Part shown: positions 27,762 through 61,053 of the stretch, piece by piece
Layout of the letters: each line of letters opens with the position of its first letter
How positions within the stretch are numbered: position 1 is the stretch's first letter
NCBI GenBank assembly: GCA_012735465.1
Contig: JAAYHJ010000050.1
Coordinates: 1 to 64,000 of the forward strand
Length of the DNA stretch: 64,000 nt
Source of the DNA: Clostridiaceae bacterium
Lineage (GTDB): Bacteria > Bacillota > Clostridia > SK-Y3
Direction: 5' to 3'
Made by a program: the position numbers and the translations under genes
The notes under the pieces: model-generated
What the model saw: the letters and a program-made list of their open reading frames with translations, nothing else
The model's database searches: none
What the model was told of the DNA's origin: nothing

Positions 27762-29697
<1,936 letters not shown>

Positions 29698-30827: not shown

Positions 30828-33800
30828 ATGAGGATTAATAAAAAATTTATTATGAAAGTTTGTGCTTTTTTATTAGTGTTTACAATGTTAATTGGAGTTA
30901 ATTTCCCAATTACCGGTTTAGAAGCGTTTGCTGCTTCAAATGATGTTGCCTCTTCGGAAAACATTTTTTCTTCGGATGATGATCTTATACTAAAGTATAA
31001 CACTATGGCCGGAACCAATTTTTCGGGTAATGCCTACGATATAAATGAATCCTTTTATAAAGCACTACCTATTGGAAACGGCCGTATTGGGGCTGCGGTA
31101 TACGGTAATTATCCGGATGAAAGAATTGATTTGAACGAAGCCACTTTTTGGAGCGGCGGACCGAGCAACAATAATAAACAGGGAGCCGCAAATTATCTGG
31201 CGCAGGCGCAAAGCCTTACGCTTCAAGGGAGATACAAGGAAGCGGATGAGCTAATCAGAAATAATATGATCGGCGGCGGAGAAGCAAGGTACCTGCCGAT
31301 TGGTAGTCTAAAATTGGCGTTTGGCCACACTTCTGTTTCTAATTATTCAAGACAGCTGGATATGAATACCGGCGTTGTTTCCTGTGATTACACCTACAAT
31401 GGAGTCAATTATCACCGTGAGTCTTTTGTCAGTTATCCCGATCAAGTTTTGGTAACCAGAATAACGGCAAGTGCACCCGGGGCCGTGTCCTTTACCGCCA
31501 CTTATGAATGTCCCCTGTCAGGTCAATATACCGTTTCCACGTCGGGTTCGGATACCCTGGTCATGAACGGACATGGGGATTCCGATCCAGGTGTGGGTTA
31601 TGCGCTGAGATTTTCAACTCGTTCCAAGATTATTAATACAAATGGAACCGTCTCAGCCGGCACCAACAGCATAACCGTTACCAATGCGGATTCGGTGATT
31701 ATTCTTACCTCTATTCGTACTAATTTTGTAGATTACAAAACCGTGAACGGGGACGAGCAAGGAAAAGCCATTGACGATATTAACAATGCTTCGACAAAAT
31801 CCTATACAACCTTGTACAACAATCATGTATCAGATTACCAGAATTTATTCAAGAGGGTGGATCTGGACCTGGGCGGTAGCGGCAGTGAGAATGGCAAGCC
31901 TATGGGACAGAGGATTGCAGAATTTAGAACTACTAATGATCCTAAATTGGTAAAAGTGCTTTTCCAATATGGAAGGTACCTGATGATTTGTGCTTCCCGT
32001 GATTCGCAGCCTATGAATTTGCAAGGGATTTGGAATAAGTTCCGTAATCCGCCTTGGGACAGTAAATATACGACAAATATCAATTATGAAATGAACTATT
32101 GGCCGGCTTTTACAACCAACCTGGAAGAATGTTTCAGGCCGTTTGTGGAAAAGGCAAAGTCGCTGCAGGAGCGGGGAAATGAAACTGCCCGTGTTCATTA
32201 TAATATAACCAATGGATGGGTACTGCATCATAATACCGATTTGTGGAACCGGACTGCTCCAATAGACGGCGAATGGGGATTCTGGCCGACCGGTGGAGCT
32301 TGGATTTCCAATATGCTATATGATGCCTATAACTTTAATCAGGATATTGATTATTTGAATGAAATATATCCGGTTATAAGAGGTAGCGCCGACTTTTTAC
32401 AAACCTTGATGCAGCCGGTAAATATTGACGGTCAGGAGTATCTGGTAATCAACCCCAGTACTTCACCGGAAGTTGCAACACCTACTAACAGTGGAGGGCA
32501 AGGCGCGTACTGCTGTTACGGAGTAACCATGGATAATGGAATATGCCGCGAGCTTTTTAAAGATGTCATCAAGGCTTCCAATATCTTAGGTATTGATTCC
32601 TCGTTCAGTTCTGTCCTCCAGTCCAAGGTTTCACAAATTAAACCCAATGCCATTGGAAGATGGGGACAGCTTCAGGAATGGGCCTTTGACTGGGACAGTC
32701 CAAATGAGAAAAACCGCCATATATCTCACCTGTACGAACTTTTCCCGGGGTATGAAATAAGTAAAAGAAAAAATGCTGCTATTGCTAATGCGGCAATAAC
32801 ATCGTTAAATGCCCGGGGAGATGAGGGAACCGGTTGGTCCATAGGCTGGAAAATAAATTGTTGGGCAAGGCTGGAAGACGGTGCCCGTGCCTATAATTTA
32901 ATCAGGCTGTTTATTGCCCCTGCCAGCTCAGGCGGCCGTCTCTATGATAATTTGTGGGATGCACATCCACCGTTCCAGATTGACGGTAACTTTGCATTTA
33001 CTTCCGGAATAGCAGAAATGCTATTGCAGAGCCATGATAATGAAATCAATCTTTTGCCGGCACTGCCTGCTCAGTGGCATACGGGCTATGTAAAGGGACT
33101 TAGAGCCCGCGGTAATTTTACAATTACAGAAATGAATTGGTCCAATGGTGTTTTGGAAAGTGTCAGCATCAAGTCCAATTCCGGTAATGTTTGTAATTTG
33201 CGCTATGGCAATAACACTGTTTCTTTCCCGACGGAAGCAGGAAAAACTTACCGGTTAAATGGTGCTTTGCAATTTATAGGTGAGGAAACTGCTCCCATTT
33301 TATCAAATATAGCATTGAATAAGACCGTCACTGCTTCGGGTGAAGCTGCCGGTGAGGAAGCAGCTAAAGCAGTTGATGGCTCAATTGATACCCGATGGTG
33401 TCATGATGCCGGTATGAGCGGTGAGTGGTTAAAAGTTGACCTCGGCGCCGAGTATGATATAAGCCGTTGGGTAGTAAAACAGGCCGGTTTGGTTGATAAT
33501 ATTAAATATAATGCAAGGGATTTTATACTTCAAAAGAGTGATGACGGAGAAAACTGGGTGGATGTGGATGCGGTTTATGGAAATGTACAAAATATAAGTG
33601 ATCGGAATGTACCAACCTTTAAGGCAAGGTATGTACGGTTGTACATCAATACTGCTACTCAGGATAATTCCGGCGGTGCCAGAATCCAAGAATTTGAGCT
33701 CTGGGGTACAAATGAAGCAGAAAACGGCGTATTAGGTGGTAATGCCCAAATCATTACGGATGAGAAAGCTTCCGGAGGCAAGGCCGTAAGACTTTCTTCC

Positions 33801-36008
33801 AAAGGGGATTCGGTGTCTTTTAACGCTTCCGGTACTGTATCGCATATTGCATTCAGGTATTGTAGCGAAAAGGATACGGTAAAGGTTAGCTTGTATGTAA
33901 ACGATACCTATTCTCAGGATATTTCCCTGGAGGGAAATGGCGTTTCGTCCGGGGAATATGCAGTCCAAACCGTTCCGGTAGATATACCGGCAGGTTCAAG
34001 CTTTAAACTGCAGTTGGACGGCGATGATGGTGCAATTACTATTGATACCATTACATTAATGGATTTAAACAGCAAACTGGCTTTGAAGAAACTAGCTGTA
34101 AATAATGAAGCTCCGACACTTATTGCAGGCAGCACCGCCTATTATAAGGTATTTGCAGAGTACATGGATGGAAGTACGGAAGATGTAACTGATAAAGCAA
34201 CATATGATAATCCGTATCCGGAAATTGCAGAGATAGCAAACGGGGTAATAAAGGCTAAGGAAAAAGGTTCAACCAATGTAACCGTAAGCTTTAAAGGAGT
34301 GCTGGGCGATACCGTAACGGCAAAGATTTCCATAACGGTTACATATCTAAATCCGTATGTTATAAATGAAGCAGAAGCATTTACCCAGCAGTCCGGTGTC
34401 CAGACAGAAAGTTGTTCCGAGGGCGGAGAAAATGTAGGCTTTATCGAAAACGGGGACTGGATAATGTTTAGTGGCGTTGACTTTGGCCCGGGGGCAGAAT
34501 CCCTTGATATTAGGGTAGCATCCGCAACCAACGGCGGAAATATTGAAGTTCGTCTTGACAGCCCTACAGGGCCATTGGTGGGAACCTGTAATGTTACCAA
34601 TACCGGGGGGTGGCAGACCTGGACTACAAAGTCTTGCCAAATCAGCGGTGCAACGGGAGTACATGACTTGTACTTTAGATTTAGCGGCGGCAGTGGTTAC
34701 CTGTTAAATGTTAACTGGTGGAAGTTCAACCCTGTAGAAGTAGCCCCCGGAGTATTTCTAAACAAGACATCCCTTGCAATGAAAACAGGTGATAAGGGTA
34801 TATTAATAGCAACCGTATATCCGCTTGATGCAGAAAATAAAACAGTAATCTTTGAATCGGATAATGAAGAGGTGGCTACCGTAACAGGAGCAGTATTTGA
34901 TGAAGCAACAGGTACCACAAGGGTAACGGTCAATGCAATATCTGAAGGTACGGCAATAATAACTGCTACGCCTGCAAACGGAACCAAAGCAGCGGAATGT
35001 GTGGTTACGGTAACAACGAGACCTCCCGAGACGGTGACGAGATATGAAGCCGAAAGCGGTACGACCATAGGCGGTACGAAAAAAAGCAGCGAAGCAAATG
35101 CCTCCGGCGGTATGGTTGTAGACTTTTTCTCAGACCCGGGTGATGGGTTGATAATTTCCAATGTGGTTGAAGGTTCCAAACTCGTTGTGAGGTATTCGAC
35201 GGAAAATGACCCGGGCAAGCTTGCTTTGTATATTAATGGAGTTTATACCATGGACCTCCTTTTACCAACTACCAGGAGTTATCATACTTTTGCAACGGAA
35301 GTGTTCGATGTATACATCCCGGAAGGAGCAGAAATTAAAATTCAGCTGGATGAAGAGGAGATAGAAACAGGAGCAAATATCGATTATATCGAGATAATAA
35401 AAATAAATGTAACAGGTGTAAAACTTAATACCAACAGCCTTAACCTTATAGTAGGAGAAACCGGACAACTGACTGCAACGGTAATACCGGACAATGCAAC
35501 CAATAAGGCTGTAAAGTTCTCATCCAGCAATACCGGCATAGCAACAGTGGATGATGCAGGTAAGGTGACGGCAGTGGCAGAAGGAACGGCAACAATCACG
35601 GTAACGACAGTGGACGGCAGTCTTACTGCTTCATGTGTAGTGAATGTAACGAAAGAAGCTTCCGAAAGTGGATATATTGTCACCACCATCTTTATGCCGG
35701 CTACCCTGCAGGGCAATAAGCTGATTTCGGCAGATGTTAATGTTGAAAACATCGATGCCCCGGATGATCCTGTACTTGCCATTGTAGCCCTTTATGATGC
35801 AAACAACCGGATGATAAATGTATCTTATATTTCCAAAGTAATTGCCAAAGGAAAGGTTGAAAAGCTTTCTGCAGGATTTATCTTACCCGAGGATATTACA
35901 GGGCATTGTGTCAAGGTATTTGTATGGGATGGAGAAACCCCGGCAACATCAGATGGGCGCCCCTTATCAAATGTTGTTTCATTGTCTGCTACCGAGCCGA
36001 CAAATTAG
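30828..36008 (+). CDS. Secreted multidomain GH95 alpha-L-fucosidase-type glycosidase
   Basis: 1726 residues. Signal peptide ~1-36. GH95 module ~55-825 with family hallmarks ALPIGNGRIGAAVYG, TNINYEMNYWP (N417, N419), GQLQEWAFDW (E617, general acid) and PPFQIDGNF (D719), matching the Asn/Glu/Asp set of characterised 1,2-alpha-L-fucosidases. Then F5/8-type CBM ~828-960, a CBM35-like beta domain ~967-1080, Big_2-like ~1083-1172, CBM6-like ~1178-1302, Big_2 ~1308-1396, CBM35-like ~1403-1525, Big_2 ~1527-1608, and a C-terminal module ~1614-1726 shared with the GH10 xylanase. No dockerin or SLH is seen. It likely removes fucose or galactose from plant glycans such as xyloglucan; the exact sugar is unproven. 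ATG at 30828 follows AAGGAAGGG; the frame is open back to 30708 without a ribosome site or signal peptide. Confidence 0.92.
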   Translation: MRINKKFIMKVCAFLLVFTMLIGVNFPITGLEAFAASNDVASSENIFSSDDDLILKYNTMAGTNFSGNAYDINESFYKALPIGNGRIGAAVYGNYPDERIDLNEATFWSGGPSNNNKQGAANYLAQAQSLTLQGRYKEADELIRNNMIGGGEARYLPIGSLKLAFGHTSVSNYSRQLDMNTGVVSCDYTYNGVNYHRESFVSYPDQVLVTRITASAPGAVSFTATYECPLSGQYTVSTSGSDTLVMNGHGDSDPGVGYALRFSTRSKIINTNGTVSAGTNSITVTNADSVIILTSIRTNFVDYKTVNGDEQGKAIDDINNASTKSYTTLYNNHVSDYQNLFKRVDLDLGGSGSENGKPMGQRIAEFRTTNDPKLVKVLFQYGRYLMICASRDSQPMNLQGIWNKFRNPPWDSKYTTNINYEMNYWPAFTTNLEECFRPFVEKAKSLQERGNETARVHYNITNGWVLHHNTDLWNRTAPIDGEWGFWPTGGAWISNMLYDAYNFNQDIDYLNEIYPVIRGSADFLQTLMQPVNIDGQEYLVINPSTSPEVATPTNSGGQGAYCCYGVTMDNGICRELFKDVIKASNILGIDSSFSSVLQSKVSQIKPNAIGRWGQLQEWAFDWDSPNEKNRHISHLYELFPGYEISKRKNAAIANAAITSLNARGDEGTGWSIGWKINCWARLEDGARAYNLIRLFIAPASSGGRLYDNLWDAHPPFQIDGNFAFTSGIAEMLLQSHDNEINLLPALPAQWHTGYVKGLRARGNFTITEMNWSNGVLESVSIKSNSGNVCNLRYGNNTVSFPTEAGKTYRLNGALQFIGEETAPILSNIALNKTVTASGEAAGEEAAKAVDGSIDTRWCHDAGMSGEWLKVDLGAEYDISRWVVKQAGLVDNIKYNARDFILQKSDDGENWVDVDAVYGNVQNISDRNVPTFKARYVRLYINTATQDNSGGARIQEFELWGTNEAENGVLGGNAQIITDEKASGGKAVRLSSKGDSVSFNASGTVSHIAFRYCSEKDTVKVSLYVNDTYSQDISLEGNGVSSGEYAVQTVPVDIPAGSSFKLQLDGDDGAITIDTITLMDLNSKLALKKLAVNNEAPTLIAGSTAYYKVFAEYMDGSTEDVTDKATYDNPYPEIAEIANGVIKAKEKGSTNVTVSFKGVLGDTVTAKISITVTYLNPYVINEAEAFTQQSGVQTESCSEGGENVGFIENGDWIMFSGVDFGPGAESLDIRVASATNGGNIEVRLDSPTGPLVGTCNVTNTGGWQTWTTKSCQISGATGVHDLYFRFSGGSGYLLNVNWWKFNPVEVAPGVFLNKTSLAMKTGDKGILIATVYPLDAENKTVIFESDNEEVATVTGAVFDEATGTTRVTVNAISEGTAIITATPANGTKAAECVVTVTTRPPETVTRYEAESGTTIGGTKKSSEANASGGMVVDFFSDPGDGLIISNVVEGSKLVVRYSTENDPGKLALYINGVYTMDLLLPTTRSYHTFATEVFDVYIPEGAEIKIQLDEEEIETGANIDYIEIIKINVTGVKLNTNSLNLIVGETGQLTATVIPDNATNKAVKFSSSNTGIATVDDAGKVTAVAEGTATITVTTVDGSLTASCVVNVTKEASESGYIVTTIFMPATLQGNKLISADVNVENIDAPDDPVLAIVALYDANNRMINVSYISKVIAKGKVEKLSAGFILPEDITGHCVKVFVWDGETPATSDGRPLSNVVSLSATEPTN

Positions 36009-58719: not shown

Positions 58720-61053
58720 ATGTTGATTAAACATAAGAAGCTTAGATATAAATCTAGCTTTTCTTTAATAATGTCAATTATCATGATCCTTGGAATATTC
58801 TCTGCGGTTCCCGTATCTGCTGCTAGGCCCAATGCCAATAGATTGTATATGTTTACCTTTACACCTGCTGAAAAGGAGGTACAGGAGTCCTGGTTCAGCC
58901 CGTCGTCAGCATCCGAAATTACCTGGATTAGCGGCAGCGGTATCGGCTTCAATGATGACGATTATGTGCTTCAAGGTAAACATATAGGAACGGACTACAC
59001 CAGTGCAAACAATGCGATTCGTCTTATTCTTCCCGAGCCCCTTCCGGCAGGACAAATTTATAATATCCAGGTATCTTTTTATGTTCCTTCCAGCTATAAC
59101 CAGGGTAAAAGCACTATTACAGGTCCCGGTATCGTGTTAAACGGAGGATACAATAACAGTGCTTATAGGCTGCCCTCATCCGCCGGAACAATTTCAATGA
59201 ACACATGGAAGATCGTAAATGTCAATACACCTCGTATGACAGAAAACATTTGGAGCATTGACTTTCGCTTTGATACCAATACTGCTGCAAATCATCCCGA
59301 TGTCTGGTACATAGACAACATTGTGATAAGCCGGCTGGCATGGGATATAACAATTCCTTCACTGGCTGATGCCTACAAGGAAAACTTTCTTTTAGGCAAT
59401 ATTATTTCGCCAAACCAGATTAATACCGAAACTACCAACATGTTTAAGCACCATTACAATGTTGTGACCGCTGAAAATCATATGAAACCAAGTATGATCA
59501 GCAATGCAAAAGGAGTTTACAACTTCTCAAGTGCCGATTCGATCATATCCTGGGCTCAGCAGAACGACATAAAGGTTCATGGACATACATTGGTTTGGCA
59601 TTCCCAATCTCCGAACTGGCTGTACAGGAATCCGGATAACACACCGCTTACACGCAGTGAAGCCCGCCAGAATATGCAGGATTATATAAATAATGTTGCC
59701 GGGCACTTTGCCGGTAAGGTTATTTCCTGGGATGTTGTCAATGAAGCCTTTGAAGGCGGCTCTCTTCCGGTGACCGATTGGAAGGCAGTCACCAGAAAAA
59801 ATTCACCTTGGTATTTAGCCTATGCTAATGGCGCTGATACAGCAAAAGGTGAAAGCGGTGCTGATTATATCTACGATGCTTTTGTTTTTGCTCGCCTGGC
59901 TGACCCGAATGCAATCCTTGTATACAACGATTATAATGAAACCGATGCCTGGAAGCGGGAAGCCATGGTCCTGATGGTTGAAGACCTTAATGCAAAATGG
60001 CTAAACGACCCGCGCAATACCGACCCTGAACGTAAGCTTATTGAACGCATTGGAATGCAGTCCCACCATTTTACCCAGTACCCACCCGTGTCCTTCGTGG
60101 AAGCTTCTATCCGACGCTTCATTCAAGCCGGCGTAATGATTGATGTGTCTGAGCTTGATATCGGTTATGGTTCTTATAACGGGCCGACAAACCAGACGCT
60201 TAATGATAAGCAGCAGGTAGAGCAGGCCATATACTATGCCCGCCTGTTTGAAATTTACAAAGCTTATGATGCATATATAACGCGTGTAACATTCTGGGGC
60301 CAGGCGGACTCCTTGAGCTGGCGTTCTGATTACAGCCCTCTGGTGTTCGACCGGGCATATGCCCCCAAAGAAGCTTATTATGCAGTTTTGGACCCAAGCG
60401 GTTATCTAATGGAAAAAGGTATTGCACCTCGTTCGCTCCATGACTTGAATATCACGATAGATACCAACACAATTACTGCAGGGCTTCCGGCTAATATTAC
60501 TGTTAAGGCTACTGCTGCTGATTTAGGAAACTATAATGTTATTGCATATCTTGATAAGGACGGCAAGGTATGCAGCGATGAGTTTAGACTCGTTAACGGT
60601 ACCGCACAGGTTGTTATTCCAAGGGCACCTGAAGCCGGCCAGTATAGAATTGTTGTTAAAGCTTATAGTGGTTCCGACTTGTTTGCTGCAAAGGCCGTTC
60701 CGGTGACCATTGTTGACGAGCCAGTGGAAAAGGATTTTACCATTAACGCTACCTATGAACCGGCTGCACTGACAGCAGATAAATTATTTACTGCAAAGGT
60801 GGAAGTAACCAGACATAAATATGAAGACAGTCCGGTGCTGCTCATTGTAGCTCTTTATAACAAGGATAACCGCATGATAAATGTAAGCTATATTTCAAAG
60901 AATTTTGAAAGAGGAACTCCCCAAACTATGGCTGCTGGTTTCAGGCTTCCGTCGGATGTGGAAGGACACAGGGTTAAGTTTTTTGTATGGGATGGTAGCG
61001 ATATGAGTGATACATCAATGACTCCTCTGTCCGATGCAATTACGGTCCAATAG
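58720..61053 (+). CDS. Secreted CBM22-GH10 endo-beta-1,4-xylanase
   Basis: 777 residues. Signal peptide ~1-35; CBM22-like domain ~40-208; GH10 catalytic domain ~212-575 with HGHTLVWHSQSPNW, the acid/base Glu in SWDVVNEAFEGG, IGMQSHHFTQYP and the nucleophile Glu in VMIDVSELDIGYG; an Ig-like domain ~583-665; and a C-terminal module ~670-777 homologous to the end of the GH95 protein. It cuts xylan backbones outside the cell. No dockerin or SLH domain. GAAAGGAGGAG lies before the ATG. Confidence 0.95.
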   Translation: MLIKHKKLRYKSSFSLIMSIIMILGIFSAVPVSAARPNANRLYMFTFTPAEKEVQESWFSPSSASEITWISGSGIGFNDDDYVLQGKHIGTDYTSANNAIRLILPEPLPAGQIYNIQVSFYVPSSYNQGKSTITGPGIVLNGGYNNSAYRLPSSAGTISMNTWKIVNVNTPRMTENIWSIDFRFDTNTAANHPDVWYIDNIVISRLAWDITIPSLADAYKENFLLGNIISPNQINTETTNMFKHHYNVVTAENHMKPSMISNAKGVYNFSSADSIISWAQQNDIKVHGHTLVWHSQSPNWLYRNPDNTPLTRSEARQNMQDYINNVAGHFAGKVISWDVVNEAFEGGSLPVTDWKAVTRKNSPWYLAYANGADTAKGESGADYIYDAFVFARLADPNAILVYNDYNETDAWKREAMVLMVEDLNAKWLNDPRNTDPERKLIERIGMQSHHFTQYPPVSFVEASIRRFIQAGVMIDVSELDIGYGSYNGPTNQTLNDKQQVEQAIYYARLFEIYKAYDAYITRVTFWGQADSLSWRSDYSPLVFDRAYAPKEAYYAVLDPSGYLMEKGIAPRSLHDLNITIDTNTITAGLPANITVKATAADLGNYNVIAYLDKDGKVCSDEFRLVNGTAQVVIPRAPEAGQYRIVVKAYSGSDLFAAKAVPVTIVDEPVEKDFTINATYEPAALTADKLFTAKVEVTRHKYEDSPVLLIVALYNKDNRMINVSYISKNFERGTPQTMAAGFRLPSDVEGHRVKFFVWDGSDMSDTSMTPLSDAITVQ

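Follow-up and report, generated by a model that had tools for sequence, protein, structure and literature searches.

A single-copy Ig-like module at the ends of secreted hemicellulases in a Clostridiaceae bacterium, with a possible role in retaining enzymes at the cell surface

To our knowledge, the retention of enzymes near the cell in anaerobes without cellulosomes is known for few species, with CBM37 and SLH as the examples. CBM37 of Ruminococcus albus is a module of ~100 residues that is often C-terminal and occurs on dozens of secreted plant-wall enzymes (77, 51 and 102 copies in three R. albus strains), sometimes in tandem and rarely together with dockerins; reports credit it with binding polysaccharides and with attaching enzymes to the cell surface, and describe it as confined to R. 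albus (PMC4081043, PMC4300822). The module that we describe here is likewise a ~100-residue, mostly C-terminal module common to many secreted enzymes of one species, but it is present in a single copy per protein, and members of its superfamily occur widely within the class. The two are not recognizably homologous: hhalign of our 42-member profile against the C-terminus of the R. albus 7 pRUMAL02 GH10 xylanase, a protein listed as ending in CBM37 (PMC4300822), gave a probability of 2.7% over 7 columns. Hence, we reject homology to CBM37, and the module would work like CBM37 at most by analogy.

The module takes the same slot on secreted proteins as SLH (PF00395), with which it is swapped in a paralogue described below. 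However, the two have no sequence relation, and a run of three repeats of ~44 residues is usual for SLH, whereas the module is one predicted Ig-like domain. Dockerins are small calcium-binding helical domains. The module shares with dockerin type I (PF00404) the arrangement of a single terminal module on many enzymes of different families, but there is no sequence match between them and the module is modelled as all-beta but for one short turn. CARDB (PF07705) is an Ig-like sandwich too, usually internal or in tandem, unlike the module, which is not in tandem and not typically internal.

The window, that is, the whole stretch of DNA analysed (64,000 nucleotides), contains two copies of the module, at the ends of a GH95 enzyme and a GH10 xylanase:

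30828..36008, forward strand: GH95 enzyme gene, from the likely Met start at 30828 (mechanical ORF from TTG 30708)
31800..33023, forward strand: GH95 catalytic domain (PF22124, E = 9.3e-158)
34368..34730, forward strand: CBM6 of the GH95 protein (PF03422, E = 2.7e-47)
35409..35642, forward strand: Big_2 Ig-like domain immediately ahead of the GH95 module (PF02368, best stretch 1568-1645)
35655..36005, forward strand: terminal module, copy 1, of the GH95 protein (BLASTP and genome profile search; AlphaFold pLDDT 92.7)
58720..61053, forward strand: GH10 xylanase gene, with signal peptide
59359..60393, forward strand: GH10 catalytic domain (PF00331)
60721..61050, forward strand: terminal module, copy 2, of the GH10 protein (BLASTP and genome profile search)

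The GH95 protein is composed, in order, of a signal peptide, the GH95 N-terminal, catalytic and C-terminal domains, F5/8 C, CBM6, two Big_2 domains and the terminal module. The initial annotation held that the C-termini of the two enzymes align along their length, and BLASTP confirms this over 108 residues, 48 of them identical (44%), with 0 gaps (100 bits, E = 5e-34). The alignment contains the identical NRMINVSYISK stretch and the VALY and FVWDG motifs that had been pointed out, and the placement of the module at the very end of both proteins holds as well, since a stop codon directly ends both copies. The numbering given for the GH95 copy, residues ~1614-1726, fits the 1726-aa protein read from the likely Met at 30828 (the ORF from TTG 30708 has 1766 aa); the start given for the GH10 copy, 60729, is out of frame and needs correction, the first in-frame codon being 60730. 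The 11-mer NRMINVSYISK is not special to this pair, as NRMVNVSYISK is the family consensus. Silent sites of the two copies agree at 0.37 (19 sites) compared with 0.32 expected from codon usage, which indicates that their likeness reflects shared ancestry under selection and not recent copying. Elsewhere in the window (27762-29393, minus strand), a 543-aa Cpn60/TCP-1 family protein is followed by an overlapping 281-aa ORF without a Pfam match.

The pair belongs to a far larger family than had been noted. Searching the 2.32-Mb genome (98.6% complete) with a profile of both copies gave 46 matches; after removal of fragments, these correspond to 42 modules in 42 ORFs, one per ORF. The module ends 0-8 residues from the stop in 37 of the 42 ORFs and is internal or right behind the signal peptide in 5. 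Contig ends truncate some of these ORFs; where the 5' end of a carrier is present and readable, a signal peptide is seen, as judged by eye and hydrophobicity. According to Pfam, the carriers include GH43 (9, one joined across two contigs), GH127 (4), GH10 (3), GH3 (3), GH95 (2) and GH51-type arabinofuranosidases (2), together with GH67, CE1-type esterase and M14 peptidase proteins; the remaining ones are LamG, Ig-like or unknown proteins. A hemicellulose-active enzyme domain is present in 25/42 carriers, counting the cross-contig GH43. All three GH10 ORFs of the genome have the module, and 8 of its 10 GH43 ORFs carry it outright; the ninth runs from contig C4 into C65, where the ORF terminates in the module, and the tenth is cut at the end of contig C15. 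Among the secreted hemicellulases of this organism, it is the main module held in common. The C4/C65 junction falls within a GH43-CBM6 gene with the module at its end; there, C4:1-118 and C65:1-118 share the same 118 bases, in reverse orientation on one of the contigs.

Many carriers also hold CBM6, CBM35, LamG or F5/8 C domains. In GH95, GH67 and GH43 carriers the module comes after Big_2 domains; in a cohesin protein, Big_2 domains are followed by SLH. A cassette of LamG, Big_4 and module recurs C-terminally (L035:8333-9658, L049, L045:1378-5580, L055 and L047:4057-8442) and once makes up a 442-aa protein of little else. Big_4 also stands ahead of the module where the latter is internal and followed by a catalytic domain (L032, L035:3761 and L050:17361).

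Amino-acid identity is about 0.45-0.46 among the organism's own copies and 0.24 to those of other genomes, and fourfold third bases of the own copies agree at 0.37, compared with 0.32 from codon usage alone. Silent sites near saturation combined with a residue identity of about 0.46 indicate old copies kept alike by selection, and we reject recent duplication as the reason for their likeness. In G016, the next richest genome sampled, identity is 0.20 within and 0.21 between genomes. On a tree of 118 copies, which rests on few columns and has many weak or unresolved forks, the 41 main own copies need 2 changes versus 31.8 in label shuffles. Nine positions are conserved to at least 85% here and to at most 30% elsewhere (L19, N56, Y59, K62, E70, G75, F76, L78 and G94); judged from the alignment, these subfamily-specific positions are candidate ligand-site residues. 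Conservation across genomes is seen at positions that are fold-like in appearance (N33, Y48, P79, F90, W92 and P104).

A few ORFs look like recent duplicates. At L034:4662-6433 (contig C94), two adjacent ORFs have modules that are 64% identical, with a silent-site identity of 0.81; one encodes a signal peptide, the module and a CE1 esterase, and the other is a 124-aa module ORF without signal peptide. This pair is likely a recent partial duplication. Two 5'-truncated 272-aa ORFs at L040 (C29) and L054 (C17), with modules 89% identical, probably go back to a recent duplication that contig ends interrupt, and a 55-aa module remnant lies beside one of them, at C29:4020-4178.

How does the module relate to the known means of anchoring secreted proteins? 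In this genome we counted 57 SLH repeats, spread over 26 real ORFs (a 27th was discounted as an overlapping-frame artefact), and the module profile found no module in any of the 26, even at E = 1. SLH, cohesin and dockerin had no match in the carriers scanned. This separation of SLH and module could partly come from both preferring the same protein end. The hemicellulases use the module while the same genome keeps a small cohesin-dockerin set of 5 cohesins and 6 dockerins. Cohesin-dockerin loci are at C93:52820-55101, C84:4723-5580, C92:19838-20410, C33, C9 and C68. At L042:3194-4590 (contig C16), a cohesin protein has three SLH repeats, and an 82-aa ORF directly upstream of it has a module-like end (FVWDGFSNMNPLSEYYEKGD), yet neither the first strands nor a signal peptide. 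This ORF is possibly a module remnant.

One locus connects the module and SLH directly. Three neighbouring paralogue genes on the minus strand of contig C95 (C95:28431-33480, L177:6432-11481) encode a common N-terminal domain without a Pfam match. The 793-aa paralogue has three SLH repeats at its end. The 370-aa protein is 52% identical to it over 249 residues (E = 1e-77), and its module begins where this homology stops; the 612-aa paralogue has two diverged copies of the N-terminal domain, followed by the module at the end. Judging by sequence, we interpret these paralogues as a case in which the module has taken the place of SLH in nature, and thus as evidence of an exchangeable slot, which does not imply the same ligand; a single swap of this kind was seen. 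Downstream of the trio lie genes for an ABC substrate-binding protein, an HlyD-like protein and a peptidase-ABC exporter.

The proposal that the module sits where a dockerin, SLH or a sorting signal would be is borne out in part. The single copy per protein, the extreme C-terminal position in 37/42 ORFs, the separation from SLH, dockerin and cohesin, the lack of any sortase match and the SLH-bearing paralogue all speak for such a slot, but a strictly C-terminal sorting signal is excluded by the five internal or N-terminal copies. The same five copies led us to reject a type IX-like, strictly C-terminal secretion signal. An LPXTG-type sorting signal was rejected because the module stops without a tail and the genome has no PF04203 (sortase) match.

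Single modules had no family match in Pfam, NCBIfam or PDB sequences, and in these searches no module of assigned function was hit. Against PDB sequences, the 42-member profile found nothing below E = 0.1; the best match, the C-terminal part of 8c8k ('Cell surface protein', E = 0.11), was not used as evidence. Scans of the 42 members and of their profile returned only weak Ig-like matches, most commonly CARDB, which matched weakly and partially in 8/42 members (best E = 0.0027). Such weak partial matches do not place the module in CARDB or the Pfam Ig-like families. SLH (PF00395) had no match in the modules scanned, dockerin (PF00404) had none among the families listed, and cohesin (PF00963) had one marginal match (E = 0.028) in 1/42 members. 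No account of the module emerged from literature searches with descriptive terms; the enzymes described in a paper on a Xylanivirga arabinanase are without signal peptides.

AlphaFold2 on the 42-row alignment gave a model (pLDDT 92.7, pTM 0.84) of seven strands that is all-beta except for one short turn, and the predicted fold is an Ig-like two-sheet, seven-strand sandwich. Its best structural matches (Foldseek, VIA-align) are non-catalytic Ig-like domains of GH2 and GH66 enzymes: a GH2 beta-mannosidase chain (Z about 11, rmsd 2.9 over 103 residues, range 215-414, with the range aligned in GH2 enzymes fitting their central Ig-like domain) and GH66 dextranases (Z about 9-10). A Wzt carbohydrate-binding domain follows with Z 9.5. 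Fold likeness does not tell the function of the module, which is acidic (median pI 4.6).

With the subfamily profile at E <= 1e-9, relatives occur in at least 34/391 genomes of the class and at least 8/398 genomes drawn from the phylum, the own genome included in both counts and a restricted set of candidates scored in each genome. In other genomes the module is last in the protein in 36/44 copies, and its carriers are subtilases, GDSL lipases, prenyltransferase-repeat/DUF4430 proteins and others. A scan of contigs with narrow peptide patterns returned a single relative (Marinisporobacter), a scan of plasmids one distant internal copy (Monoglobus), and a scan of viral sequences no relatives. 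By sequence comparison, the module appears to belong to a wide superfamily that carries no name in the Pfam, NCBIfam or PDB-sequence libraries.

What does the module bind, if it binds anything? We rank a ligand on the cell surface first, followed by a plant polysaccharide and then by an inert cap. Tentatively, and at a little under even confidence, we propose that the module binds a ligand common to all carriers and probably holds the secreted enzymes at the cell surface or matrix. We favour this reading because the module is present in a single copy, occupies a terminal slot interchangeable with SLH and is separated from other anchors, and because it is conserved under selection on carriers of unlike specificity and on non-enzymes. 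Carriers of very different activity, including a peptidase, an esterase and non-enzymes, make it unlikely that the ligand is one substrate. Several points count against retention: an Ig-like sandwich very often serves as no more than an inert spacer; within G016 the wider family, though terminal, is poorly conserved, which would fit a structural cap equally well; and the module is acidic, unlike many wall-binding modules.

The module could instead be a carbohydrate-binding module that targets a shared plant polysaccharide (e.g., arabinoxylan) and has no role at the cell. The 25/42 carriers with a hemicellulose-active enzyme domain, the recurring LamG - Big_4 - module cassette and a beta-sandwich fold typical of carbohydrate-binding modules are all consistent with this, and CBM37 is known to bind both cell and glycan (PMC4081043). 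However, many carriers already possess CBM6, CBM35, LamG or F5/8 C, and the module is also found on an M14 peptidase and non-enzymes (the C95 cluster) and, elsewhere, on subtilases, lipases and prenyltransferase-repeat proteins. We consider this explanation unlikely.

An inert C-terminal cap or spacer of Ig-like fold, serving to protect or stabilise long secreted proteins, is in our view more doubtful still. A generic Ig-like fold suits such a cap, as do the wider family, C-terminal in 36/44 copies on varied secreted proteins with ~20% identity within a genome, and cross-genome conserved positions that resemble fold positions. The nine positions conserved to at least 85% here and rare elsewhere, a pattern that silent-site saturation attributes to selection and not to recency, argue against a cap; moreover, the module comes as one copy per protein, whereas spacer Ig domains of the same proteins are often repeated, and it replaces SLH in a paralogue. 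Docking onto a scaffoldin-like protein receptor, parallel to the small cohesin-dockerin set, is very improbable: the single copy per protein, kept alike across enzymes, and the use of surface scaffolds implied by the cohesin-SLH proteins and few dockerins would fit it, but no receptor candidate was found, and there is no sequence resemblance to dockerin and only a marginal cohesin match in 1/42 copies.

Returning to retention at the cell surface, we hypothesize that the single acidic Ig-like module at the enzyme end would bind one common ligand, most likely on the organism's own surface, such as a wall polysaccharide, the S-layer or a matrix glycan. Xylan- and arabinan-degrading enzymes held at the cell would allow released sugars to be taken up and not lost. 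With some reserve, we extend this to a possible, as yet unnamed enzyme-anchoring system, in which a selected 42-copy Ig-like module ties most secreted hemicellulases to a single surface ligand and other lineages of the class have their own versions. As part of the same reading, and with the same reserve, such anchoring might be an alternative that is non-SLH, non-cellulosomal and sortase-free.

In summary, almost every GH43 or GH10 protein of this one organism carries a module that has relatives across the class. Because it is missing from the Pfam, NCBIfam and PDB-sequence libraries, many secreted proteins of the class have an unlabelled terminal domain. The module might also serve as a tag for enzyme display.
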